This document shows, piece after piece, positions 29,959 through 55,269 of a stretch of 64,000 nt of DNA. This DNA comes from Candidatus Methylomirabilota bacterium (GTDB lineage: Bacteria; Methylomirabilota; Methylomirabilia; Methylomirabilales; Methylomirabilaceae). The notes beneath the pieces were generated by a model. The model searched no databases. It worked only from the letters and a program-made list of their open reading frames with translations, and had not been told where the DNA came from. Location of the stretch: assembly GCA_016207095.1 (NCBI GenBank), contig JACQQF010000044.1, positions 1 to 64,000 on the forward strand, in the 5' to 3' direction. Every line of letters begins with the position of its first letter. Within the stretch, counting starts at the first letter, position 1. A program made the position numbers and the translations under genes.

Positions 29959-31008
29959 CTATGGCCCCACCCAGATCCGGCCGTCGGGATCTTCGATCAC
30001 CTCGCCGATTACGGCCGCGGCCGGTGTCTGACGGTCTTTCAAGCGCTGGATCAGCGCTGCGGTCATGTCCTTGGGCACCGCGATCAGAAGGCCGCCGGAG
30101 GTCTGGGCATCGCATAGGATGAGCTGAGCCTCTTTCGAAATTCTGCGATCCCAGACGATGGCTTCCCGCAGTGAGTCATGGTTTCGTTGCGTCCCGCCGG
30201 GGCAAATCCCGCTCTGAACCAACCCCCAGGCCTCGGGGAGAATGGGAACCTTCGAGAGGGAGACTCGCGCTCCGACCTTGGCTCCCGCGGTCATTTCGCG
30301 CAGGTGACCGAGGAGTCCAAATCCTGTCACGTCTGTACAGGCGTGCGCCCCCACCTCCGCCATGGCGTCGGAGGCGCCTCTGTTCAGGGTGCTCATCAGG
30401 GAGATTGCGGCATCGATGGTTGTCTTGGAAACCTTCTCCCGCTTGATCCCGGTGGTGATGATCCCGAGGCCAATAGGTTTAGTCAGGACCAGATCATCGC
30501 CCGTCCGGGCGGTAGAGTTCCTGAAGATCTTGGCCGGGTCGATCAGCCCGGTGACCACAAGACCGTACTTCGGCTCGGGATCATCGATGGTGTGTCCTCC
30601 GATGATCGAGGCCCCGGCCTCTCGGACCTTCTCGGCGCCTCCCCGAAGGATCTCCTCTAAGACGCTCAGCGGAAGTGAACCGACGGGAAAGCCGACGATA
30701 TTAAGGGCAAACAGGGGTCTCCCTCCCATGGCGTAGATGTCGCTCAAGGAGTTGGCTGCGGCGATCAGGCCGCAGCTATACGGGTCATCCACCACAGGCG
30801 TGATGTAGTCCACCGTCTGCACAATCGCCAGCCCACCGTCTAGTTGGTACACGGCGGCATCATCCGATGTCTCCATCCCCACCAAGACCTTCGGGTCCTC
30901 GAAGCGCGGTAGGTGGCCCAAGACCTGGGCCAGATCAGCGGGGCTGATCTTGCAAGCTCACCCAGCCCCATGTGAGAGGGCGGTGAGTCGGATCGGATCG
31001 TTTTTCAT
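29959..31008 (-). CDS. selD: Selenide, water dikinase, with in-frame UGA read as selenocysteine at position 17
   Basis: SelD makes selenophosphate, the selenium donor for selenocysteine. The frame from the ATG at 31008-31006 reads RLTALSHGAG-UGA-ACKISPADL; Escherichia coli SelD has SHGAGCGCKISP, with catalytic Cys17 and Lys20. The UGA (complement of 30958-30960) falls exactly at codon 17. The rest is intact to the C-terminus, with QTVDYITPVVDDP, NSLSDIYAMGG, GGHTIDDPEPKYGL and TDVTGFGLLGHL, giving 349 residues. Stop-codon-blind annotation would start at a TTG at 30921 and lose the active site. Sec-containing SelD is a known form of the family. Confidence 0.93.
30914..30932 (-). promoter_or_regulatory. 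SECIS-like hairpin for selD
   Basis: Downstream of the UGA, the mRNA reads GGCCC-AGGTCT-TGGGCC, a stem with loop AGGUCU. This is the same apical loop as in the E. coli fdhF SECIS. The loop lies about 31-37 bases after the UGA, near the far end of the usual range. A second perfect stem (AGATCAGC/GCTGATCT, loop CCC) lies between. Confidence 0.65.
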
Positions 31009-39540: not shown

Positions 39541-40821
39541 ATGTCACACCTATGGCTACGATGTCGGTTGATTGGAATCGTGCTTAGCCTCGCGCTCGCC
39601 GCGACGGCGGTGGAGGTCTCTGCACACGGAGGCGACCCAACGCTCATTCACGGTTGCGTCAATAATGCAAGTGGCGTTGCAAGGATCGTGGGTCCTAGCG
39701 ACGGTTGTCGGGCGAGCGAGACAGCGGTTGATTGGAGCATCACCGGACCTACTGGACCCCAGGGACCCTCAGGGCCAACCGGGGCACAGGGAGTCCAGGG
39801 CCCAACCGGCGCCACCGGGCCGCAGGGCGACCCGGGCGTGGGGCTCAATCCGCTCCAGATCGCAATTCTCCGCTGGTATGAGGCCAACCTGACCACCGCC
39901 TTTGCCGTGGGCATCGGCCCCGCCGGCGTCGCCTTCGACGGGATGCACATCTGGGTGGCGAACAGTGGCAGCAACACGGTGACCAAGCTCCGGGCGAGCG
40001 ATGGGACCTGCAACGGCGTCGCTGATCCACCGGGCTCCGATGTGAGCGCCTGTAGCTTCGCCGTGGGCGGCAATCCCGGAGGTGTTGCGTTCGACGGGGC
40101 CAACATTTGGGTGACAAATCTTAACAGCCACACCGTGACCAAGCTCCGGGCGAGCGATGGGACCTGCAACGGCGTCGCGAATCCGCCCGGCTCCGACGTG
40201 AGCGCCTGTAGCTTCGCCGTGGCCTTGACCCCCTTCGGCATTGCCTTCGATGGGGCCAACCTCTGGGTCGCGAGGTTTGGCAGCAACGCCGTGACCAAGC
40301 TGCGGGCGAGCGACGGGGCTAATCTGGGGAGCTTCGCCGTGGGGGTCAAACCCGTCGGCGTCGCCTTCGACGGGGCCAACATCTGGGTGACGAACGATGA
40401 GAGCCACACTGTGACCAAGCTGCGGGCGAGCGACGGAGCCAATCTGGGGAGCTTCGCCGTGGGGACTAGACCTCATGGTGTCGCCTTCGACGGGGCCAAC
40501 ATCTGGGTGGCGAACACGAACAGTGACACCGTGACCAAGCTGCGGGCGAGCGACGGAGCCAATCTGGGGAGCTTTGCCGCGGGCGACGCCCCCGAGGGTC
40601 TCGCCTTCGACGGGGCCAACATCTGGACGGCCAACCTTGCTGGCGACAGCGTCACCAAGCTGCGGGCGAGCGACGGCGCCTGCGCGGGTGCTGCCAACCC
40701 GCCAGGCTCCGATGTGAGCGCCTGTAGCTTTGCCGTGGGCGATAGCCCCCATGAGATCGCCTTCGACGGGGCCTCCGTCTGGGTGACGAACGGTAACAGC
40801 GCCACGGTGTCAAAAAGGTAG
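39541..40821 (+). CDS. Secreted protein with collagen-like G-X-Y segment and 40-residue propeller-type repeats
   Basis: The 426-residue precursor has a signal peptide ending near VSAHG, then a short conserved module (LIHGCVNNASGVARIV). About 12 Gly-X-Y triplets follow (GPTGPQGPSGPTGAQG...), then at least seven repeats of the type VAFDGANIWVTN...TVTKLRASDG. The later repeats have an exact 120-bp DNA period. Proteins with this layout are probably surface or extracellular structural or binding proteins. No enzymatic motif is visible. A clear AAGGAGGGG site sets the start. Confidence 0.82.
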   Translation: MSHLWLRCRLIGIVLSLALAATAVEVSAHGGDPTLIHGCVNNASGVARIVGPSDGCRASETAVDWSITGPTGPQGPSGPTGAQGVQGPTGATGPQGDPGVGLNPLQIAILRWYEANLTTAFAVGIGPAGVAFDGMHIWVANSGSNTVTKLRASDGTCNGVADPPGSDVSACSFAVGGNPGGVAFDGANIWVTNLNSHTVTKLRASDGTCNGVANPPGSDVSACSFAVALTPFGIAFDGANLWVARFGSNAVTKLRASDGANLGSFAVGVKPVGVAFDGANIWVTNDESHTVTKLRASDGANLGSFAVGTRPHGVAFDGANIWVANTNSDTVTKLRASDGANLGSFAAGDAPEGLAFDGANIWTANLAGDSVTKLRASDGACAGAANPPGSDVSACSFAVGDSPHEIAFDGASVWVTNGNSATVSKR

Positions 40822-42534: not shown

Positions 42535-42987
42535 ATGAAGATTTCCGCGAAAGGCGACTACGCGACGCGAGCGATGCAGGATCTTGCCTTGCACTATGAC
42601 AAAGGCCCGATTCAGATCGAGGAGATCGCCAAACGCCAACATCTCCCTGTCCGTTACCTGGAGCAGATCCTATTGAGTCTGAAGCGGGCCGGGTTTCTGG
42701 AGAGCAAGCGTGGGGTGAGCGGGGGGTACTACCTGGCCAAGCATCCCCGAGAGATTACGATGGGAGGCATCATCAGGGCCACCGAGGGCCCCATTCTGCC
42801 GATCTATTGCGTTGGCAGCGGGAAGAAGCGGGAAATCTGCATCGAGGAGCCTCACTGCAGCCTGCGCGATATCTGGGCTGATGTCCGTGATGCCGTGTCT
42901 AGGATTGTAGACCATACCACGCTGGATGACCTGTGCCAGCGCATCAGAGAGAAACGAGAGCGGCAAGGCGTGAGCTACCACATCTAA
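42535..42987 (+). CDS. Rrf2-family transcriptional regulator (IscR/CymR-like)
   Basis: The 150-residue winged-helix regulator begins MKISAKGDYATRAMQDLA and contains the IAKRQHLPVRYLEQIL recognition region and the RGVSGGYYLAK wing. Three cysteines (C92, C102, C108) sit where IscR has its Fe-S ligands (C92, C98, C104), although the first spacing is longer. It is followed 31 bases later by cysK and the sulfur gene cluster. It is therefore probably the regulator of cysteine or sulfur supply, sensing Fe-S status or a cysteine-synthase signal as CymR does. Confidence 0.9.
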   Translation: MKISAKGDYATRAMQDLALHYDKGPIQIEEIAKRQHLPVRYLEQILLSLKRAGFLESKRGVSGGYYLAKHPREITMGGIIRATEGPILPIYCVGSGKKREICIEEPHCSLRDIWADVRDAVSRIVDHTTLDDLCQRIREKRERQGVSYHI

Positions 42988-43018: not shown

Positions 43019-43933
43019 ATGTCTCGGCTGGTTCGAAGCGCTCTTGAGCTGATCGGCGACACCCCCTTGGTCGAGCTGCAGCGGATTCCGAGGCACGGAT
43101 CGGCCCGAATCCTTGGAAAGCTTGAGTCTCTGAACCCGGGAGGAAGCGTCAAGGATCGCATCGCCTTGGCGATGATCGACGAGGCGGAGCGGAGCGGCCG
43201 CCTGAAGCCGGGCGACACGATCGTCGAGCCGACTTCCGGAAACACCGGGATCGGCCTTGCGGTGGTGGCGGCGATCAAAGGGTACCGCCTGATCCTGACG
43301 ATGCCGGAGGACATGAGCGTGGAGCGACGGACACTGGTGAGCCGGTTCGGGGCGGAGCTGGTCCTGACCCCAGCCATCGAGGGGATGAGCGGCGCCGTCT
43401 ACGCCGCCGAGTCGCTGGTAGCGAACAATCCCGGCTACTTCATGCCGCAGCAATTTCTCAATCCGGCCAACCCGGAAATCCACCGCCTGACAACCGCCAG
43501 AGAGATCCTGAAGGCGACTCAGGGGCAGATCGACGCCTTTGTGGCGGGTGTCGGCACCGGCGGGACCATCACCGGCGTAGGTGAGGTGTTAAAGCAGGAG
43601 GTGCCCGGTGTTCGGGTGATCGCGGTCGAACCGGCCAAGTCTCCCGTCTTACAGGGAGGCAGGGCCAGGCCGCATGGCATCCAGGGGATCGGCGCCAGCT
43701 TCGTACCCGGCGTGCTGAACATGGACGTGCTTGACGAGATCATCTCCGTAGAGGACGAGGACGCCTATCGGATGGCGACTCGCCTGACCCGGGAAGAAGG
43801 CTTGCTGGTAGGGATCTCAGCCGGGGGAAACGTCGTTGCCTCGACGATCGTTGCCGAGCGGCTTGGAGCCGGAAAGGTCGTCGTGACAATCCTCCCCGAC
43901 ACAGGGGAGCGATACCTGACGGTCCCATTCTGA
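43019..43933 (+). CDS. cysK: Cysteine synthase A (O-acetylserine sulfhydrylase)
   Basis: This PLP enzyme makes cysteine from O-acetylserine and sulfide. The 304 residues include NPGGSVKDRIAL with the PLP lysine at K45, PTSGNTGIGL, GVGTGGTITGVGE, and the C-terminal GISAGGNV. It is a close match to the CysK form. It differs from the second synthase at 48895, which has the features of the carrier-protein-dependent type, so the cell has two routes to cysteine. Confidence 0.94.
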   Translation: MSRLVRSALELIGDTPLVELQRIPRHGSARILGKLESLNPGGSVKDRIALAMIDEAERSGRLKPGDTIVEPTSGNTGIGLAVVAAIKGYRLILTMPEDMSVERRTLVSRFGAELVLTPAIEGMSGAVYAAESLVANNPGYFMPQQFLNPANPEIHRLTTAREILKATQGQIDAFVAGVGTGGTITGVGEVLKQEVPGVRVIAVEPAKSPVLQGGRARPHGIQGIGASFVPGVLNMDVLDEIISVEDEDAYRMATRLTREEGLLVGISAGGNVVASTIVAERLGAGKVVVTILPDTGERYLTVPF

Positions 43934-44015
43934 CCTTCACTGGAGCCCGATGATGGATGCCTATCGTAGTCCGGACTCATCTCGTGGGCGGGAATCAGCG
44001 AGCGGAGAGGTGTCG

Positions 44016-45101
44016 ATGGAGGTCCGTGTCTATATCCCGACCCCGTATCGGAGGCTGACCCAGAATCAGACTTTTGTCGAGGGTCGTGGAGATAATTTAG
44101 TGGAACTCTTGGACGATCTGGAGACCCGCTTCCCAGGGATCAGGGGGCAGGTCTTTGACGAGGTCGGAGAGATCCACCGCCATGTGAATGTGTATGTGAA
44201 CAACGTGGCGGCGGAGGAACTAGGGGGAAAACGGACCGTGCTCAGGAGCGGAGACGAGGTGGCTCTCATCCCGGCCATGGCGGGCGGGGCCGTGCCGTTC
44301 AACGAAGAACAGATCCGTCGATATAGCCGCCACATCATTCTTCCTGAGGTGGGCGGCAAGGGGCAGCGCAAGCTATTGAACAGCTCGATTCTGCTGGTCG
44401 GGGCGGGAGGCCTTGGCTCGCCCGCGGCCCTCTACCTGGCGGCTGCCGGAATCGGTCGCCTCGGGATTATCGACGGCGATGTCGTAGACATGAGCAACCT
44501 ACAGCGTCAGATCCTTCACCACGTGGATGACGTTGGACGACCTAAGGTCCAGTCTGCGGTGGACAGCATCGCCCAGATCAACCCTGACGTGAAGGTTGAG
44601 CCGTTTCAGACAGTTCTCTCGTCGGATAACGCAAAGGAGATTATCAGTCAGTACGACCTTGTGGTGAATGGCTGCGACAACTTTCCGACGCGCTATCTGG
44701 TGAACGACTGCTGCGTGTTCTTGAAGAAGCCGCTGGTGGACGGGAGTATCTTCAAGTTCGAAGGACAGGTGACGGTCTTCGTACCCGGTCAGGGCTGCTA
44801 CCGTTGCCTGTACCCCGCGCCCCCGCCGCCGGGACTCGTCCCGAGCTGCCAGGAGGCCGGCGTCCTGGGCGTATTGTGCGGCATCATCGGGAGCTTGCAG
44901 GCGATCGAGGCGATCAAGCTGTTGCTTGGCATCGGCGACTCTCTGGCGGGGCGTCTCCTGTTCGTCGATTCATTGGGGATGGAGTTCCGGCAGGTGAAGG
45001 TCCGCCGCGACCCTGAATGCCCGGTCTGCGGAGACCATCCGACCATCACCGATCTAATCGACTACCACGAGTTCTGCGGGGTTCCGGGCGCCAGTCATTA
45101 G
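44016..45101 (+). CDS. Fusion: ubiquitin-like sulfur carrier (CysO/MoaD type) and E1-like adenylyltransferase (MoeB/ThiF type)
   Basis: Residues 1-91 form a beta-grasp sulfur carrier (MEVRVYIPTPYRRLTQNQ...ALIPAMAGG) ending in Gly90-Gly91. Instead of stopping, it continues AVPFNEEQIRRYSRHIILP into a complete E1-like enzyme. That part has the nucleotide loop GAGGLGSP (129-136), the NLQRQILHH segment, two CxxC zinc pairs (CYRCLY, CPVC) and SCQEAGVLG. E1 enzymes adenylate the carrier C-terminus for sulfur loading, which here needs a free Gly-Gly, so processing is expected. A JAMM peptidase lies in the same cluster. The ATG at 44016 matches the free carrier at 62219; an in-frame ATG at 43950 is also possible. 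Confidence 0.9.
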   Translation: MEVRVYIPTPYRRLTQNQTFVEGRGDNLVELLDDLETRFPGIRGQVFDEVGEIHRHVNVYVNNVAAEELGGKRTVLRSGDEVALIPAMAGGAVPFNEEQIRRYSRHIILPEVGGKGQRKLLNSSILLVGAGGLGSPAALYLAAAGIGRLGIIDGDVVDMSNLQRQILHHVDDVGRPKVQSAVDSIAQINPDVKVEPFQTVLSSDNAKEIISQYDLVVNGCDNFPTRYLVNDCCVFLKKPLVDGSIFKFEGQVTVFVPGQGCYRCLYPAPPPPGLVPSCQEAGVLGVLCGIIGSLQAIEAIKLLLGIGDSLAGRLLFVDSLGMEFRQVKVRRDPECPVCGDHPTITDLIDYHEFCGVPGASH

Positions 45102-45110
45102 GGCACGTGG

Positions 45111-46136
45111 GTGAGCGTGATGCTACAGATGATTCTCCTGGGGTTGGCCGTTGGGGTGGCGTTCGGATATGCGCTTCAGCGCGGCCGCTTCTGCATGAAC
45201 TCGACATTCCGCGACATCCTGGTGGGACGTGACCTCACCCTGCTGCGGGCCTATCTCCTTGCGCTTCTGATCCAGATGGTCGGGGTCAGGGCGATGGCGA
45301 CGCTGGGCTGGTTCGAGTTGGGCATCACCCCCTTTTTCTGGCAAGCCACGCTGCTTGGCGGGTTCGTCTTCGGTCTCGGCATGGCATTCTCCGGCGGGTG
45401 AGCGAGCGGCAGCACTTACCGGTCAGGTGAGGGGTTGGTGGGATCGGTTGTCGCGCTGCTGGGTTTTGCATTTGGGGTGACCATGACCAGCGGGGGCGTG
45501 CTTGAGCCTGTGCAGACTGCCCTTCGGAGCTGGGTGATCGAGATCGACGGAGAGGTGGCAACCCTGGATCTCTTCTTGCGCGTCAATCCATGGCTTCTCG
45601 TCGCGGGATGTGTCGCGGCGGGTGGTTGGTGGCTCTTGAGAAGCCCAGCGGGAGGTTACCAAAGGGGGTGGAGTTGGGCACGGACCGGAATCGTGATCGG
45701 GTTGATCGCCACACTTGCCTGGCCGATCTCGACGCTGACCGGAAGGGAGTACGGCCTGTCGATCACCGAGCCGATCCGAGCGATCGCGGCATTCCTGTTG
45801 ACGGGCGATGCTGAACAGATCACATGGAGTAGCTTCATGTACCTGGGGCTCATCGCGGGCGCCTTCTTGGCGGCGCGGTCGCATGGAGAATTCGCGTGGC
45901 GCGCGCCGGGCGCGCAGCGCCTCCTCCAGGCGCTCGGAGGCGGCTTGATGATGGGTGTGGGGGCTGGGATCGCCGGCGGCTGCAATATCGGCTATGGACT
46001 GACCGGTGTCCCTCTCTTTGGCCTGAGCAGCTTGACCGCAACCATCAGCATCGTCCTGGGAGTGTGGGCTGGGGCGTATATGTTATTCGGGAGTGTTGCC
46101 TTCGAGCGGAGGGTCCGAGATGCACAGCGCGCGTAA
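45111..46136 (+). CDS. tsuA: YeeE/YedE (TsuA-like) thiosulfate transporter with in-frame UGA, probable selenoprotein
   Basis: The frame is continuous except for one TGA at 45399-45401: GLGMAFSGG-UGA-ASGSTYRSGEGLVGS. Homologues have cysteine there (GGCASG or similar). Counting from the GTG at 45111, the UGA is codon 97. The other family cysteines are present: C28 in RGRFCMN and C291 in GIAGGCNIGYG. In the thiosulfate transporter TsuA the cysteines near 17, 91 and 293 line the pathway. Reading UGA as selenocysteine gives a full-length 341-residue, multi-helix protein. A SECIS-like hairpin follows and SelD is encoded in the window. A simple nonsense mutation remains possible, but both halves are perfectly preserved. 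Confidence 0.82.
45415..45431 (+). promoter_or_regulatory. SECIS-like hairpin in the transporter gene
   Basis: CTTACC-GGTCA-GGTGAG forms a six-pair stem (one G-U) with loop GGUCA. The loop begins 19 bases after the UGA. The E. coli fdhF loop (AGGUCU) begins 17 bases after its UGA, so position and GGUC loop both agree with a bacterial SECIS. Confidence 0.65.
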
Positions 46137-47034
46137 CGTTCGAATCCATTTGTGTATGGCATTCATGGTCTGTTGGGCTGTCGCGGGGATCCTTCCGCCG
46201 CGTGCGTTCGGGGCCGAGGGGTACGCGAACCCACAGCTCCTTATCGAGACACACGAGCTGGCCAAGCGGCTGGGCGAGGCAGGACTGCGGCTTGTGGATC
46301 TTCGCACGCCGCAAGAGTACGCCGGCGGCCACATCCCCGGCGCAGCGCACCTAAGCTGGCAGGCCCTGGATGACCTCAAGGCAAATCAGCAGGGCCTTCC
46401 GATCCCCAAGGCTCGGGCGGAGGAGTTGTTCGGCGGACTCGGGATCGGGGAAGCCACCAAGGTGATTGCCTACGACGGTCCCAAGACTCCGTTTGGCGCG
46501 GCCCGCCTCTTCTTCGTCCTGGAATTCTTCGGCCACGACAAGGTGCAGGTGTTGAACGGGGGCTTCAGGAAGTGGGCGCAAGAGGGTCGTCCCCTTTCCA
46601 CTGACGTGCCTACGCCGCCCAAGGCCACCTTCGTCGCTCGGCCACGCCAGGAGCTTTTGGCCACCGCCGAGCAGGTGCGCGGCAAGCTGAGCGACCCGAA
46701 GGTCTGCCTGCTCGATGCGCGAAGCGCTGGGGAGTATGCCGGCGAGGATGTCCGAGCTGAGCGAGGAGGTCGGATTCCGGGGGCGGTCAACGTGGACTAT
46801 CTCAGTACTGTTCGGCGGGATGATCACACCTTCAAGGCCGCTGAGGAGCTGCGGCGGATCTTCGAGTCCGCAGGGGTGACGCCGGATCGGGAAACAATCA
46901 CCTATTGCCACACCGGCGCCCGGGCCAACCACGATTATTTTGTCCTGCGGCTTCTGGGCTATCAGAAGCTCAAGAACTACGATGGCTCCTGGATCGAATG
47001 GGGAAATTCGGAGTCGCTGCCGATCCAGGAATGA
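46120..47034 (+). CDS. Exported tandem-rhodanese thiosulfate sulfurtransferase
   Basis: The 304-residue precursor has a signal peptide (to about FGAEG) and two rhodanese domains. In the first, the active-site position reads AYDGPKTPFG with no cysteine. The second has the active loop YCHTGARAN with Cys263. It would move sulfane sulfur from thiosulfate in the periplasm, next to a thiosulfate importer. The ATG at 46120 follows GGAGGG and overlaps the end of the transporter gene. Confidence 0.9.
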   Translation: MHSARNVRIHLCMAFMVCWAVAGILPPRAFGAEGYANPQLLIETHELAKRLGEAGLRLVDLRTPQEYAGGHIPGAAHLSWQALDDLKANQQGLPIPKARAEELFGGLGIGEATKVIAYDGPKTPFGAARLFFVLEFFGHDKVQVLNGGFRKWAQEGRPLSTDVPTPPKATFVARPRQELLATAEQVRGKLSDPKVCLLDARSAGEYAGEDVRAERGGRIPGAVNVDYLSTVRRDDHTFKAAEELRRIFESAGVTPDRETITYCHTGARANHDYFVLRLLGYQKLKNYDGSWIEWGNSESLPIQE

Positions 47035-47047
47035 TGGGAGGGAGGAG

Positions 47048-47275
47048 ATGGCGCAGTATTCGCTGGACGTCACCGGGGAGATCTGTCCGTATCCGTTGAT
47101 CTTGACCAGAAAAGAGATGGGGAAACTGCAAACGGGCGATCAACTTGCCGTGACCGTCGATTACGCGAAATCGGCCGAGGACATCCCCCGGTGGGCGAAG
47201 GAAGAAGGGCACACGATCCTGGCCGTTCGGGAGAGGGGCGGGAGCCAGTGGGAGATCGTCCTGGAGAAAGCCTAA
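47048..47275 (+). CDS. TusA-family sulfur carrier (TsuB-like)
   Basis: The 75-residue protein has the CPYP active motif (Cys13) at the start of helix 1 and the usual two-layer alpha/beta fold (LDVTGEICPYPLILTRKEM...GHTILAV). TusA-like TsuB proteins act with TsuA-type transporters to accept imported thiosulfate. The position just after the transporter and rhodanese fits that role. The ATG at 47048 follows GGGAGGAG. The stop codon coincides with the left end of a MITE-like element. Confidence 0.92.
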   Translation: MAQYSLDVTGEICPYPLILTRKEMGKLQTGDQLAVTVDYAKSAEDIPRWAKEEGHTILAVRERGGSQWEIVLEKA

Positions 47276-48518: not shown

Positions 48519-48764
48519 ATGAGTGAATCGCATCAACAGACAGCCGAACCCCTCGATCTGAAGGGCGAGGTCTGCCCGTATACCTTTGTGAAGAGCAAAC
48601 TGGCATTGGAGGAGATGGAAAGCGGTCAGGTCCTCAGGGTGATCGTCGATAACCGGGGCTCAGCCGAGAATGTCCCGAGGAGCCTGTCCAGCGAGGGGCA
48701 CCAAATTCTCAACGTCGCGATGCTGAACGACACCGACTGGGCCATTACCGTCAGGAAGGCGTGA
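48519..48764 (+). CDS. TusA-family sulfur carrier, CPYT variant
   Basis: The 81-residue protein has the fold and spacing of TusA with Cys19 in EVCPYTFVKSKLALEEM. The second proline of the CPxP motif is replaced by threonine, as in some TusA paralogues. It lies 130 bases upstream of the CysM gene, so it may hand sulfur to the carrier protein or cysteine synthase. No transcription terminator separates it from its neighbours. Confidence 0.88.
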   Translation: MSESHQQTAEPLDLKGEVCPYTFVKSKLALEEMESGQVLRVIVDNRGSAENVPRSLSSEGHQILNVAMLNDTDWAITVRKA

Positions 48765-48894: not shown

Positions 48895-49830
48895 ATGAGA
48901 ACAGTCGATACCCTTGATGCCATCGGGAATACCCCCCTGGTCGAGCTTCCGCGGATCACCCCTAAGAAGGGGGTCCGGATCTTTGCCAAGATGGAGGGGA
49001 ACAATCCAACCGGCAGCCTCAAAGACCGGATTGCAAAGTATATGATCGAGCACGCCGAGCGCAGCGGCGACCTGACGAAGGACAAGACCATCCTGGAGCC
49101 GACCAGCGGCAACACCGGCATCGCCTTGGCGATGATCGGGCGCCGGAAGGGGTACAAGGTCAAGGTGGTCATCCCGGAGAACGCCACGCCGGAGCGGCGC
49201 CAACTCTTGGAGATCTTTGGTGCCGAGATGATCTATTCGGACGGGACGAAGGGGAGCAACGGCGCCATCGAGTTGGCCCAAAAGCTTGCAGCTCAGGACA
49301 AGACCCTCTATATGCCGTTCCAGTATGGCAACCCTGCGAACCCTCTGGCTCATTATGAGACCACCGGCGTGGAGATCTTGAACGATCTTCCGGAGGTCGA
49401 TGTCTTCGTGGCCGGGCTCGGTACCGGCGGGACGCTCATGGGAGTCGGTCGTCGGCTCAAGGAGGTCAACCCGAAGACCAAGGTGATCGCCGTCGAGCCG
49501 CATCCGGGCGACCTGGTTCAGGGGCTCCGCAGCCTGGACGAGGGCTTCATTCCTCCGATCCTTGACACGAGCTTGCTGGATAGCAAGATTATGGTTGATT
49601 CCCGTTGCGCCTTTGCCGCCACGAAGGATCTGACAATGAAAGAGGGGATCTTTGCGGGCGTCTCGTCCGGTGCAGTCGTTCATGTCGCCATCCGGATGGC
49701 GCATCGGATGGAAAAGGGGAACATCGTGGTGGTCCTCTGCGACAATGGATGGAAGTACGTCAGTCTGGGCGTGTGGCATAAGGAGTTCCCGGAGTTGGGC
49801 GAGAATATGTATAGTCACCTCTGGTGGTAG
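48895..49830 (+). CDS. cysM: CysO-thiocarboxylate-dependent cysteine synthase (CysM type)
   Basis: The 311-residue PLP enzyme has NNPTGSLKDRI (PLP lysine K43), PTSGNTGIAL and GLGTGGTLMGVG. It follows mycobacterial CysM through the sequence (KGSNGAIELA, FQYGNPANPLAHYETTG, LRSLDEGFIPPILD, GIFAGVSSGAV, GWKYVSLG). Mycobacterial CysM uses O-phosphoserine and sulfur carried on CysO as a C-terminal thiocarboxylate. The C-terminus ending LWW resembles the mycobacterial tail. The JAMM protease gene follows after a single base, matching the cysM-cysO-mec set. Confidence 0.9.
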   Translation: MRTVDTLDAIGNTPLVELPRITPKKGVRIFAKMEGNNPTGSLKDRIAKYMIEHAERSGDLTKDKTILEPTSGNTGIALAMIGRRKGYKVKVVIPENATPERRQLLEIFGAEMIYSDGTKGSNGAIELAQKLAAQDKTLYMPFQYGNPANPLAHYETTGVEILNDLPEVDVFVAGLGTGGTLMGVGRRLKEVNPKTKVIAVEPHPGDLVQGLRSLDEGFIPPILDTSLLDSKIMVDSRCAFAATKDLTMKEGIFAGVSSGAVVHVAIRMAHRMEKGNIVVVLCDNGWKYVSLGVWHKEFPELGENMYSHLWW

Positions 49831-49831
49831 G

Positions 49832-50305
49832 ATGGCGCTCGCTGAGCAGGATCTGAAGGCGATCATCGCCCACGCCGAGGAAGGATACCCCGACGAAGTC
49901 TGTGGAATCGTCATCGGGAAGACGGGCGACGCAAAGACGAATGCCGTCCGCCGATGTCTGAATGTCGCGAACACCTACCATCAAGAGGATCCGATCCGGT
50001 ATCCCAGAGATGCAAGAACGGCGTACATCATGGATCCTCAGGATCTCCTGCGCATCCAACTCGAAGCGGATGCAAGAGAGCTCGATTTCCTCGTTATCTA
50101 TCACTCCCACGCCGATCACGACGCTTATTTTTCCTCAACCGATCGGGACCTGGCGCTCTTCGAAGGGGAGCCTCTATGGCCTGGCGCGCAGTATCTTGTC
50201 GTATCAGTCAGGAATAAGAAAGCACAAGATTTCAAATTTTTTATATGGGATTCTCTCATCAAAGACTTTAAGAATCTCATGGTTGCTGCTTCTACTGGTA
50301 AATAG
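49832..50305 (+). CDS. mec: JAMM/MPN+ metalloprotease (Mec type)
   Basis: In mycobacteria the Mec protease releases cysteine from the CysO-cysteine adduct. The 157-residue protein has all JAMM residues: Glu22 (DEVCGIVIG), His91 and His93 (YHSHADHD), Ser101 and Asp104 (SSTD). It is directly after cysM. Besides releasing cysteine, it is the best candidate to cut after Gly-Gly in the carrier-E1 fusion at 44016. The last about 100 bases and the following gap are clearly AT-richer than the surroundings, and the C-terminal 25 residues are unlike those of Mec. Confidence 0.9.
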   Translation: MALAEQDLKAIIAHAEEGYPDEVCGIVIGKTGDAKTNAVRRCLNVANTYHQEDPIRYPRDARTAYIMDPQDLLRIQLEADARELDFLVIYHSHADHDAYFSSTDRDLALFEGEPLWPGAQYLVVSVRNKKAQDFKFFIWDSLIKDFKNLMVAASTGK

Positions 50306-50407
50306 CGTTATTTTTTCCTCTTATATTCTTGATTAATTCGATAAAGATTATTGCAATTCTAAGAGCCGATCGGAGCTGAAGCGTAGAGATTGGAGCGGGG
50401 CACTGCC

Positions 50408-52108
50408 GTGAGCGAGCCGCAAGTAAAGGAAACGAAGGCGCAACGGATGGAGCGCCTCAAGCGGGAAAAGAACCCATGGGAGTGTTTCGACGAGATCGAG
50501 CGATTTGCCAGAGAGGGTTTTCAGTCGATACCACACGAGTGGTTAGGCACCTACTTCCGCTGGTGGGGCGTGTACACCCAGGGAGATGGTATCGGCGCGG
50601 TCGGGGGGAAAGGGGGCGAGGGCAAAGCCGCCCCCTATTTCATGGTGCGCATCCGTATCCCGAACGGCTTCCTCATGTCCCATCAACTTCGAACGATCGC
50701 CGAGTGTACGGAGAAACATGCACGGGGGATGGCAGACCTGAGTGTACGCCAGAACATCCAGCTCCACTGGGTCACCGTTGAAGACCTCCCCAACCTCCTG
50801 CAGAGTCTCTGGCGGTGCGGAATTACGACGATGGGCACCTGTGGAGACGTCACCCGCAATATCACCGGCTGCCCCGTCGCTGGAGTGGACGCCGATGAAA
50901 TTGTGGATGCCTCCCCACTCGTTCACGCTGCCACCAGGATGCTGAACGGGAACCCGGATTTTTACAATGTGCCGCGCAAATACAAGATCTGCATCACCGG
51001 CTGCCGGGCGTGGTGTGCCTACCCGGAGATCAATGACATCGGCATGACTGCCATTCGTCATCCGGAGACGGGCGAAATCGGCTTCTCCGTAAGGGTTGGC
51101 GGGGGGCTCTCCACTCACCCGCACCTCGCCGTTCGTCTCAACGCCTTTGTTCAGTGGAACCAGGTGTTGCCGGTCGTGAAGGGGATCACTGAGATCTTCC
51201 GCGACGCTGATTGCCTTCGCCAGGATCGGGAGAAGGCCCGGCTCAAGTTCCTGTTCCTCGCTCACGGTTGGACATCGGAGCGCTTCCTGGAGGAGTTGAA
51301 GGGGCGCATCGGGTTTGAGCTCGACCCTGGCGTGTCCGAGGAGCCGCCGGACGATGTGTATCGCGACCACGTGGGCATCCACCCTCAGAAGCAGGATGGA
51401 TACTGTTACGCCGGCATCCCCATTCTGCGGGGTCGAATCACCGCGGGGCAGATGCGGGCCACAGCCGATCTCGCTGACCGCTATGGCACGGGCGAGTTAC
51501 GGGTCACGATCATGCAAAATCTCCTTCTCCTCAACCTGCGGCGCCAGCACACCGATGCCCTGGCAAGGGAGATCGAGCACGCCGGGATGCGGCTTCACGC
51601 CTCACCGTTCTGGCGGGGTACGGTTGCGTGCACGGGAACGGAATTCTGTAAGCTGGCCCTCACGGAGACGAAGGGCTTCGCCCAGTGGCTGGTGGAACAG
51701 CTTGAGGAGCGGATGCCAGGATTTGACCAACACCTCAAGGTCCACGTGACCGGTTGCCCGAATAGCTGCGGCCAGCACTGGATCGCCGACATCGGCATTG
51801 AGGGCAAGAAGATCAAGGTCGGCGGAACAATGGTTGATGCGTATTACTTCTGTGTGGGGGGCGCCGTCGGCAAGCACCAGGGCAAGGCCAGGCCGGTAGG
51901 ATATCGCTGCGCCGCGACCGAGGTGCCGGGCGCCATCCAACGCCTGTTGGCGGCATACCTGGATGACCGGTCGGACGGCGGAAACTTTCGCCAGTTCGTG
52001 GCTAAGCATAGCGACGCTGAGTTACGTGCGCTCCTGGCAGGGCAACAGGTCGCTGCGGTTGCGAGAGATCCTTCTCCCGGCAGGCCGCCCCTGGGAGTGG
52101 ATGCCTAG
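50408..52108 (+). CDS. Ferredoxin-dependent nitrite/sulfite reductase (siroheme), first copy
   Basis: The 566-residue enzyme has the duplicated nitrite/sulfite reductase layout. The [4Fe-4S]-siroheme cysteines are C408 and C414 (ACTGTEFC) and C450 and C454 (TGCPNSCGQ). Its N-terminal FRWWGVYTQ and DLSVRQNIQLHW segments resemble mycobacterial-type sulfite reductase. It reduces sulfite to sulfide or nitrite to ammonia with six electrons; the location favours sulfite. The GTG at 50408 follows GGAGCGGGG. The upstream 100 bases are AT-rich and may hold the promoter. The stop coincides with the end of a MITE-like element. Confidence 0.88.
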   Translation: MSEPQVKETKAQRMERLKREKNPWECFDEIERFAREGFQSIPHEWLGTYFRWWGVYTQGDGIGAVGGKGGEGKAAPYFMVRIRIPNGFLMSHQLRTIAECTEKHARGMADLSVRQNIQLHWVTVEDLPNLLQSLWRCGITTMGTCGDVTRNITGCPVAGVDADEIVDASPLVHAATRMLNGNPDFYNVPRKYKICITGCRAWCAYPEINDIGMTAIRHPETGEIGFSVRVGGGLSTHPHLAVRLNAFVQWNQVLPVVKGITEIFRDADCLRQDREKARLKFLFLAHGWTSERFLEELKGRIGFELDPGVSEEPPDDVYRDHVGIHPQKQDGYCYAGIPILRGRITAGQMRATADLADRYGTGELRVTIMQNLLLLNLRRQHTDALAREIEHAGMRLHASPFWRGTVACTGTEFCKLALTETKGFAQWLVEQLEERMPGFDQHLKVHVTGCPNSCGQHWIADIGIEGKKIKVGGTMVDAYYFCVGGAVGKHQGKARPVGYRCAATEVPGAIQRLLAAYLDDRSDGGNFRQFVAKHSDAELRALLAGQQVAAVARDPSPGRPPLGVDA

Positions 52109-53324: not shown

Positions 53325-53436
53325 AGCGCGATGAAACTCGCCGGACCCGTACGGATCAGGCTGGCTTAGCGGACGATGTCGCGCCAACCGCGTTGATCGC
53401 CGGAACCCAGAGGGGGTCTCATCAAGGGGGGTGACG

Positions 53437-55269
53437 ATGACCGATACAAGCCGTGGCTTCACGACTGACCAGCCCAGTTGCCCCTCGATGTCGAGTGCGG
53501 GGGAGATCTGCGCCGGAGAGCGTGACCTGGCTGGCAGACCCTCCTGGGCCGAGAAGGAGGAGATCGACACCTTCGATCAGTTCGTGCAGCGGTTCTGGAA
53601 GGGAGAGATCTCTCCGGATGAGTTCAAGCGGTTCCGCCTCCAGAACGGGATCTATGGCCAGCGCCAGGAAGGCGAGCAGATGGTCCGGATCAAGATCCCG
53701 TGGGGCGGGCTGACGGCGGCTCAATTGGAGTTGCTGGCCGAGGTGGCGGCGGAGTCCCCCCGTGGCGTGGGCCACGTCACGACGCGCCAAAACATGCAGT
53801 TCCATTTCGTCAAGCTTGATCGGGTGCCGGCGTTGCTGGAGCGCCTGGCGGCGGCGGGTCTGACGACCCGAGAGGCCTGCGGGAACACGGTTCGCAACGT
53901 CACGGTCGGGCACTGCGCCGGGGTGTGCCCAAAGGAGGCCTTCGACGTCACCCCCTATGCCGATGCGGTAGCCCGGTACCTCCTGCGCAATCCGATGAAC
54001 CAAAACCTTCCCAGGAAGTTCAAGATTGCCTTCTCCGGATGTCCCGATGACTTGGGTCTCACCCCGATCCACGACATCGGGGCGCGTGCCATCCTCCATG
54101 TCATGGACGGCAAAGAGGAACGGGGCTTCCAACTCTATGTCGGGGGCGGCCTGGGCCCCTCGCCCCGGGTCGCGCAGCTCCTCGAAGAGTTCACCCCATG
54201 CGATAGGCTGTTGCCGACTGTCGCCGCCATCGTGCGCGTCTTCGACCGCCTCGGCAACCGTGAGAACCGCAACATGGCCAGGATGAAATTCCTGTTGGAC
54301 AAGCAGGGGATCGATCAGTTCCGGAAACTGGTGTTCCAGGAACGGACCGGTCTCGAGGCAACACTGGCCGGACACCTCCCTGCCATCGTCCCGTGGGAGG
54401 AAGGTCCTCCTCATCACCACGAACAGCCTGGCCAACGGGACCCATCGGGGGATCTTGTCGATGCAGCCTACCGTCGTTGGAGAAATACGAGCGTGCTGGA
54501 TCAAAGGCAGGCCGGCTACGCCATGGTCCAGGTCCGGCTTGAGCTGGGAGACATCACCCCCGTGCAACTGAAAACCCTGGCTTTCGCGGCCCGCCAATTC
54601 GGCGATGGCAGCGTGCGGAGTACGAATCAGCAAAACTTCATCCTCAGGTGGGTCCGCGTCGATCGGATCGCCTCGCTCTATCGCGTTCTCGTATCAGTTG
54701 GCCTCGCCAACCCATCCGCTGAGCGATTGGGCGACGTGACCGCCTGTCCTGGGGCTGATACCTGTCAGCTCGGGATCACCTCATCGCGGGGATTGGCTTC
54801 CGCACTGGGAGATCTGTTTCGGGATGGCCTGAGCGACCTCGCCGATGAGAGCGGGATCAGGATCAAGATTTCCGGGTGTCCCAATTCCTGCGGTCAGCAC
54901 CACATCGCGAATATCGGGTTCTACGGTGGGGCCAAGAAGTTCCACGGCCAGCAGGCTCCGACCTACCAGATGCTGCTCGGCGCGCGCCTCGAGGCCGGCC
55001 AAGTTCGCTACGCCAAGGCGACGGCAAGAATACCGGCCAAGAATATCCCGGGGGCGGTCGAGGCTCTCTTGCGCCTCCATCAGAGTGAGCGACACTCCGG
55101 TGAACCATTTAGTCAATTTATGGAACGGTATGGAGCGGATCGATTGAAGGAGGTGCTGAAGCCATTCATGGAATTGCCACCACCCCTGGAAGCACCGGAT
55201 CATTATGTCGATTATGAGTCGGAGGGCGCGTTTTCCATTCAGACTGGTCCAGGTGAATGCGCTGCATAG
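53437..55269 (+). CDS. Ferredoxin-dependent nitrite/sulfite reductase (siroheme), second copy
   Basis: The 610-residue paralogue has the cluster cysteines C437 and C443 (ACPGADTC) and C481 and C485 (SGCPNSCGQ). It also has a second cysteine-rich stretch in the first half (HCAGVCPKEAFD). It differs from the first copy in both halves, so the two probably have different substrates or electron donors. It is followed by a propeller gene and then cysH and sat, which makes it the better candidate for assimilatory sulfite reduction. The ATG at 53437 follows a GGGGGG ribosome site. Confidence 0.86.
   Translation: MTDTSRGFTTDQPSCPSMSSAGEICAGERDLAGRPSWAEKEEIDTFDQFVQRFWKGEISPDEFKRFRLQNGIYGQRQEGEQMVRIKIPWGGLTAAQLELLAEVAAESPRGVGHVTTRQNMQFHFVKLDRVPALLERLAAAGLTTREACGNTVRNVTVGHCAGVCPKEAFDVTPYADAVARYLLRNPMNQNLPRKFKIAFSGCPDDLGLTPIHDIGARAILHVMDGKEERGFQLYVGGGLGPSPRVAQLLEEFTPCDRLLPTVAAIVRVFDRLGNRENRNMARMKFLLDKQGIDQFRKLVFQERTGLEATLAGHLPAIVPWEEGPPHHHEQPGQRDPSGDLVDAAYRRWRNTSVLDQRQAGYAMVQVRLELGDITPVQLKTLAFAARQFGDGSVRSTNQQNFILRWVRVDRIASLYRVLVSVGLANPSAERLGDVTACPGADTCQLGITSSRGLASALGDLFRDGLSDLADESGIRIKISGCPNSCGQHHIANIGFYGGAKKFHGQQAPTYQMLLGARLEAGQVRYAKATARIPAKNIPGAVEALLRLHQSERHSGEPFSQFMERYGADRLKEVLKPFMELPPPLEAPDHYVDYESEGAFSIQTGPGECAA

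Follow-up and report, generated by a model that had tools for sequence, protein, structure and literature searches.

Introduction

The closest described relatives of the transporter studied here are TsuA/YeeE of Spirochaeta thermophila (PDB entries 6leo, 6lep, 8j4c and 8k1r; partner protein YeeD/TsuB), the two-gene PmpA/PmpB systems of Serratia and Hyphomicrobium, and YedE/FdhT. In the available text of PMC11073785, S. thermophila YeeE is described as passing thiosulfate along a relay of three residues, Cys293 first, Cys91 second and Cys22 third, to a TusA-like partner. Both Cys91 and Cys293 are indispensable in TsuA (PMC11582611, accessible portion).

The family has also been connected with selenocysteine (Sec). 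A 2026 review lists YeeE/YedE (Pfam PF04143) as a predicted selenoprotein family with the motif GUxSG (PMC13188914, Table 1), and the accessible part of a 2022 review likewise lists a predicted Sec-containing PF04143 protein (PMC9312934). These two sources refute the statement, made in an earlier sequence-only reading of the DNA analysed here, that no Sec form of the family had been described. Uncharacterised selenoproteins are mostly thought to serve redox functions (PMC13188914).

Here we describe a PF04143 gene in a 64,000-nucleotide stretch of the genome of a Candidatus Methylomirabilota bacterium, which we call the window. The gene shares the Pfam family and the local motif (GG-U-ASG) of the published entry and, because a Sec-containing PF04143 protein had already been predicted, it adds a further member to this predicted family of selenoproteins. 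We infer with high confidence that UGA-97 of this YeeE/YedE-family sulfur transporter is decoded in the cell as Sec by SelA, SelB, SelC and SelD together with a stem-loop, placing Sec in the middle of the relay.

An in-frame TGA at the second relay position

The features of the transporter gene are as follows.

45111..46136 (+): YeeE/YedE-family (PF04143) transporter gene, 341 residues, predicted Sec at 97
45192..45194 (+): Cys28 codon, third relay cysteine, equivalent to Cys22 of TsuA
45399..45401 (+): in-frame TGA, read as Sec97, equivalent to Cys91 of S. thermophila TsuA
45415..45431 (+): SECIS-like hairpin CTTACC-GGTCA-GGTGAG, 13 bases past the TGA, loop at 45421-45425
45981..45983 (+): Cys291 codon, first relay cysteine, equivalent to Cys293 of TsuA

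The TGA at codon 97 is the sole internal stop, and the frame is open before and after it. The Pfam PF04143 profile (Sulf_transp) runs across the TGA and matches over its full length (model 1-310, all 310 positions; 263 bits against a gathering cut-off of 27), which bears out the initial observation of a single TGA at the conserved cysteine between two intact halves. When the protein is aligned to PDB 6leo (E 3.4e-47; gap-free from residue 7 on residue 1 to residue 108 on residue 102), U97 falls on C91, C28 on C22 and C291 on C293, so that all three relay positions (22, 91 and 293) are matched and the two further cysteines claimed by the sequence-only reading are in place. That reading had numbered the TsuA cysteines as 17, 91 and 293; the last two are correct, whereas the first YeeE residue is Cys22 and C17 is a residue of the partner YeeD (PMC11073785, available text). 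An in-frame UGA at a conserved cysteine column with homology on both sides is one of the marks of a bacterial selenoprotein gene, and the window gene has it.

The window protein is colinear with S. thermophila TsuA and shares with it the three relay positions and a TusA-like partner gene. It differs in carrying Sec for the second cysteine and in missing the NCBIfam cut-offs for TsuA (NF052577, 241 of 400 bits; NF041049, 216.2 of 645 bits). Because these cut-offs are not reached, we say that it resembles TsuA and may work like it, and do not file it as TsuA.

Recurrence of the TGA column

A search of 95 genomes of Methylomirabilota found PF04143 in 88, and at least 21 of the 95 hold a long-type gene whose Cys91 column is TGA: 13 of type 1a (mostly 330-360 aa), six of the longer type 1b and two with the motif KGUATS (L056 and L059). 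The stops flagged in L064 and L065 (TGA) and in L066-L068 (TAG) were rejected, as they lie past the end of the gene. The column also holds TGA in other phyla, and since it is shared by many species the window TGA is more than chance. Within the genus, six of 15 members have TGA at this column and nine have cysteine. On a tree of 29 genes built with the trait residue masked, we count at least four changes between U and C, a figure that includes the doubtful, very long branch of L061.

A degenerate pattern applied to a GTDB-based collection returned 76 stretches, 47 of them YeeE/PmpB homologues open past the TGA (14 identical to loci already found in the phylum). Among these were type 1b genes with predicted Sec in records of Bacilli, namely Salsuginibacillus, Bacillus sp., Evansella and Halalkalibacterium (L086, L093, L101, L119, L122), with selA over cut-off in all five. 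The other 29 matches were not YeeE and were set aside: 27 are genes ending at GGG-TGA, mostly alphaproteobacterial, and selA was absent from all three tested genomes of this alphaproteobacterial by-catch; the remaining two are L082 and L134. Of these, L082 (1834, +; Streptomyces olivaceoviridis) is a non-YeeE-like frame with 332 open codons ahead of its TGA and 369 beyond it, in a genome with selA.

Selenocysteine machinery

The source genome (2.9 Mb in 103 contigs, 95% complete) contains selA, selB and selC, on which the sequence-only reading depends, and selD as well. Profile searches gave 597 bits for selA, 367 for selB and 398 for selD, and tRNA-Sec (selC) scored 71 bits and was also called by ARAGORN. 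The selD gene lies in the window.

30067..31008 (-): selD, selenophosphate synthetase; TIGR00476, 397.7 bits; profile match 30067-30990, the low end being the end of the match and the start inferred

This selD is itself a selenoprotein gene, with a TGA at 30958-30960 in the active site (GAG-U-ACK).

Elsewhere, selA was over cut-off in all 15 members of the genus, in 22 of 27 tested TGA-bearing genomes from the pattern search (these cover 27 of 33 TGA loci once those identical to loci of the phylum are set aside; five genomes gave no match over cut-off) and in 10 of 11 TGA-bearing genomes from the phylum of a Desulfobacterales record, L118 (the exception being G323, which holds L174). TGA-bearing genomes without a selA match are mostly metagenome assemblies. 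One YeeE gene, in a Pseudovibrio record (L142), has TGA at the Sec column with neither a selA match nor a hairpin signal. This gene, which may be a pseudogene, an error or a case of recent loss of the Sec system, probably does not encode Sec and speaks against a blanket reading of such TGA codons as Sec; it was left out of the hairpin test below.

A SECIS-like hairpin after the TGA

The hairpin that the sequence-only reading described 13 bases after the TGA was located at the coordinates given above. Taken alone it is moderately more stable than synonymous shuffles and not significantly so (z -1.3). Across 64 TGA genes, stems at nucleotides 13-42 had a mean z of -1.79 against protein-preserving shuffles, compared with +0.10 at 72 cysteine columns (Mann-Whitney p 6.7e-20, a value that overstates the difference because the sequences are related and not independent). 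The mean was -2.03 for 33 long-type genes, -1.58 for 21 PmpB genes and -1.45 for 10 PmpA genes. At nucleotides 31-60 after the TGA the signal was absent in the same synonymous-shuffle comparison (p 0.89). The peak at a single position and the cysteine control do not depend on the p value. Two loci, L058 and L186, lie outside the 64-gene set, as their motifs are beyond the patterns used, and their hairpins were viewed as single folds only.

Sequence detail points the same way. Five distinct TGA genes of the genus have CTTACCGGTCNGGTGAG in common, and the cysteine genes of the genus differ from them there mainly at the third base of a Thr codon: the stem-pairing Thr/Ser codon ends in T in 5/5 distinct TGA genes and in 1/9 cysteine genes. 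For PmpB, pairing was counted in the 14 of 21 genes that have one register, the seven with another register having been excluded by eye. Pairs 18-33 and 21-30, each joining two third codon positions, are paired in 12 and 11 of the 14, formed by TA, CG, GC and one AT. Sliding the register by -3 leaves it nearly as well paired (0.77 versus 0.83), and sliding it by -1, +1 or +2 gives a paired fraction of 0.26-0.42. The set-wide shuffle test and the third-position pair changes in PmpB thus both indicate a SECIS-like stem-loop under selection.

Predicted selenocysteine in split PmpA/PmpB relatives

The source genome has a second Sec-bearing copy of the family, a PmpA/PmpB pair (L021 2611-4701 (-), contig C73) of the same split type as the known pairs of Serratia and Hyphomicrobium (PMC11582611, accessible portion). 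Its PmpB carries a TGA in GGY-U-PGTS that aligns to the TGA column of the window gene. Such pairs differ from the PmpA/PmpB proteins in the accessible part of that source by having predicted Sec at the conserved cysteine of PmpB or, in certain genomes from the phylum to which L118 belongs, in PmpA instead. YqeB, of the selenium-dependent molybdenum cofactor system (TIGR03309, over cut-off), lies directly upstream of the source genome's pair and was not found at the other 20 PmpB loci with TGA.

TGA stands at the PmpB equivalent of Cys91 in 21 loci, including that of the source genome, from records of SAR324, Deltaproteobacteria or Desulfobacterales, Nitrospirae, Latescibacterota, Anaerolineae/Chloroflexota, Spirochaetia and Acidobacteria. 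It stands at the PmpA equivalent of Cys293 in 10 loci (L063, L177-L183, L185, L190), of which L063 comes from the phylum of the window. The phylum of L118 has PF04143 in 281 of 395 genomes, with at most five candidates scored per genome. From the matches listed there, 18 that hold a stop (mainly TGA) were picked: nine are PmpA genes whose Cys293 column holds TGA (GUPSG), one is a fused form with GGUNIG (L186), one has KGUATS (L174), and seven have cysteine there and stops elsewhere. A single gene, L058 (G006), has its TGA at the Cys22 column (RGRFU), with cysteine at 91 and no cysteine at 293.

The partner of a Sec-bearing subunit keeps its cysteine in all 30 pairs read. PmpB with TGA is paired with cysteine-type PmpA at 21/21 loci, and PmpA with TGA is paired with cysteine-type PmpB at 9/10, the partner alignment of L063 ending before the site. 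Two TGA codons at relay positions of one transporter were not seen among the loci read. At L118 (882-6405, -), the pair with TGA in PmpB lies between a rhodanese-like protein and a set comprising a molybdopterin oxidoreductase, a ferredoxin-like protein and an NrfD-like protein, which, judged visually from the ORF list, resembles a thiosulfate/polysulfide reductase.

Sulfur gene neighborhood and proposed function

The window gene lies in a cluster of sulfur genes.

42535-42987 (+): Rrf2-family regulator (PF02082), heading the cluster
43019..43933 (+): cysteine-synthase-like PALP enzyme (PF00291), seen beside type 1a genes
43950..45101 (+): ThiS and ThiF/MoeB fusion, sulfur carrier with activating enzyme (PF02597, PF00899)
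46093..47034 (+): rhodanese-domain sulfurtransferase (PF00581), start more likely at 46120
47048..47275 (+): TusA-family sulfur carrier with CPYP motif (PF01206), ORF 46940-47275, start inferred
48519..48764 (+): second TusA-family carrier (PF01206)
48895..49830 (+): second cysteine synthase, cysKM (TIGR01136, over cut-off)
49652..50305 (+): JAB/JAMM peptidase (PF14464), true start probably inside
50390..52108 (+): sulfite/nitrite reductase hemoprotein (PF01077, PF03460)
53431..55269 (+): second sulfite/nitrite reductase hemoprotein (PF01077, PF03460)

The first TusA protein finds its best match in YeeD/TsuB (NF041048, 65.5 bits, under the cut-off of 147.5). Among 13 type 1a loci from the phylum, several of them short, ThiS-MoeB was found at 11, TusA at 11, rhodanese at nine and cysteine synthase at nine; in 10 named type 1a loci that were searched, JAMM was found in four and sulfite reductase in one. 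None of the window's sulfur genes was found in 19 type 1b loci, and beside PmpB with TGA only rhodanese was found, at two of 21 loci. The pathway proposed below is therefore not general to the family. A further gene of the window, at 39541-40821 (+), encodes a collagen-like run of GPxGPx and, after it, a series of VTKLRASDG repeats.

Homology and operon together suggest that the window transporter probably imports thiosulfate or sulfane sulfur for cysteine synthesis. In the proposed relay, thiosulfate or another sulfane-sulfur anion would meet Cys291 first, Sec97 second and Cys28 third, at the cytoplasmic exit, and would be passed to the TusA/YeeD-like carrier of the operon. The rhodanese, ThiS-MoeB, cysteine synthase and JAMM peptidase would then convert the sulfur to cysteine, and the sulfite reductases would recover released sulfite. 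The operon resembles the CysO/CysM/Mec carrier-protein route to cysteine. Sec is a stronger nucleophile and a better leaving group than cysteine, and at the middle station it could speed exchange or resist over-oxidation.

Alternative explanations

The Sec transporter might instead be a YedE-like importer of selenium, or of selenium and sulfur together, which we consider unlikely. YedE (TIGR04112) is a predicted selenium transporter in the accessible sections of PMC5322559, the source genome's own PmpA/PmpB copy with TGA adjoins YqeB, and the window protein, a member of the same superfamily, gives weak matches to the YedE/FdhT profiles (TIGR04112, NF033796). These matches are far below cut-off, however; the best match of the window copy is TsuA, at 241 bits against 102 and 49, and those sections of PMC5322559 describe YedE/FdhT with a conserved cysteine and not Sec. 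Furthermore, the window copy lies among sulfur-assimilation genes that recur beside its relatives, and nine of 15 genus members have cysteine at the column, yet all 15 have selA.

It is very improbable that the TGA is a true stop, with the downstream half a remnant or a separate 233-residue protein starting at TTG 45435. The standard code (table 11) does split the gene into two ORFs of 96 and 233 aa, and two-gene pairs exist among YeeE relatives (accessible portion of PMC11582611), but in those natural pairs the break falls between the two halves and leaves the Sec-column residue inside PmpB. Many species from several phyla share the TGA column, the alternative residue in relatives is cysteine and not a random one, and across the set the downstream stem beats synonymous shuffles. 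The two sides of the TGA are under similar coding constraint: dN/dS for L001 versus L040 is 0.133 upstream and 0.117 downstream, and across six pairs it is 0.06-0.20 upstream and 0.07-0.12 downstream. Relatives with a cysteine codon exist, and the window copy has no other internal stop.

A miscalled TGC or TGT has a negligible probability: the source genome is in 103 contigs, but TGA stands at the matching codon in separate records of other species (for example L094, L095, L123 and L135) and at the matching column of the source genome's second YeeE-family gene. That the whole genome reads TGA as an amino acid has no specific support and can be dismissed just as readily, as TGA stands at cysteine columns beside a complete Sec machinery and, in a filtered window scan giving 30 TGA-joined candidates (a filter that missed selD, with homology searches covering part of the 30), only the window gene was recognised as a homologue continuing past its TGA.

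Residue 97 as a predicted selenocysteine, the central claim of the sequence-only reading, is thus well supported by the machinery, the conserved TGA column, the SECIS-like hairpin and purifying selection.

Discussion

The published PF04143 entry is a single row with one motif and predicted status (PMC13188914, Table 1); GYUPGT (PmpB), KGUATS and RGRFU are absent from it. Its motif GUxSG is compatible with GUASG, the form at the Cys91 column, as well as with GUPSG, the form at the Cys293 column of PmpA. Neither YeeE nor YedE appears in the main texts of two references behind the entry (PMC2398784, PMC5029168). Our search of open-licence papers, among them PMC12013277 and Table 1 of PMC13188914, turned up neither PmpB-type Sec nor Sec at other positions nor a pattern of one Sec per pair. 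As far as our searches reach, then, what is new is that split relatives carry TGA, at the equivalent of either PmpB Cys91 or PmpA Cys293, with cysteine retained in the partner of every pair read. Because ORF calling with the standard code halves such genes, Sec forms are easily missed.

The reciprocal placement of Sec in PmpA/PmpB pairs lends indirect support to the proposed PmpAB heterodimer. Sec in the transport path of a transporter is unusual, and it bears on whether YeeE acts by a hydrogen-bond relay or by covalent S-S/Se-S exchange; for this comparison a single genus offers natural Sec and cysteine orthologues, every member having selA. We regard it as an evenly balanced proposal that transporters of the YeeE/Pmp superfamily which use Sec hold exactly one, and that it is movable, lying at the middle station in TsuA-type proteins and PmpB, at the first in PmpA and rarely at the third. 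If so, the three cysteines would act as stations of a single sulfur relay that are interchangeable in their chemistry, and a single selenium station would set the energetics of the relay or shield it from oxidation.
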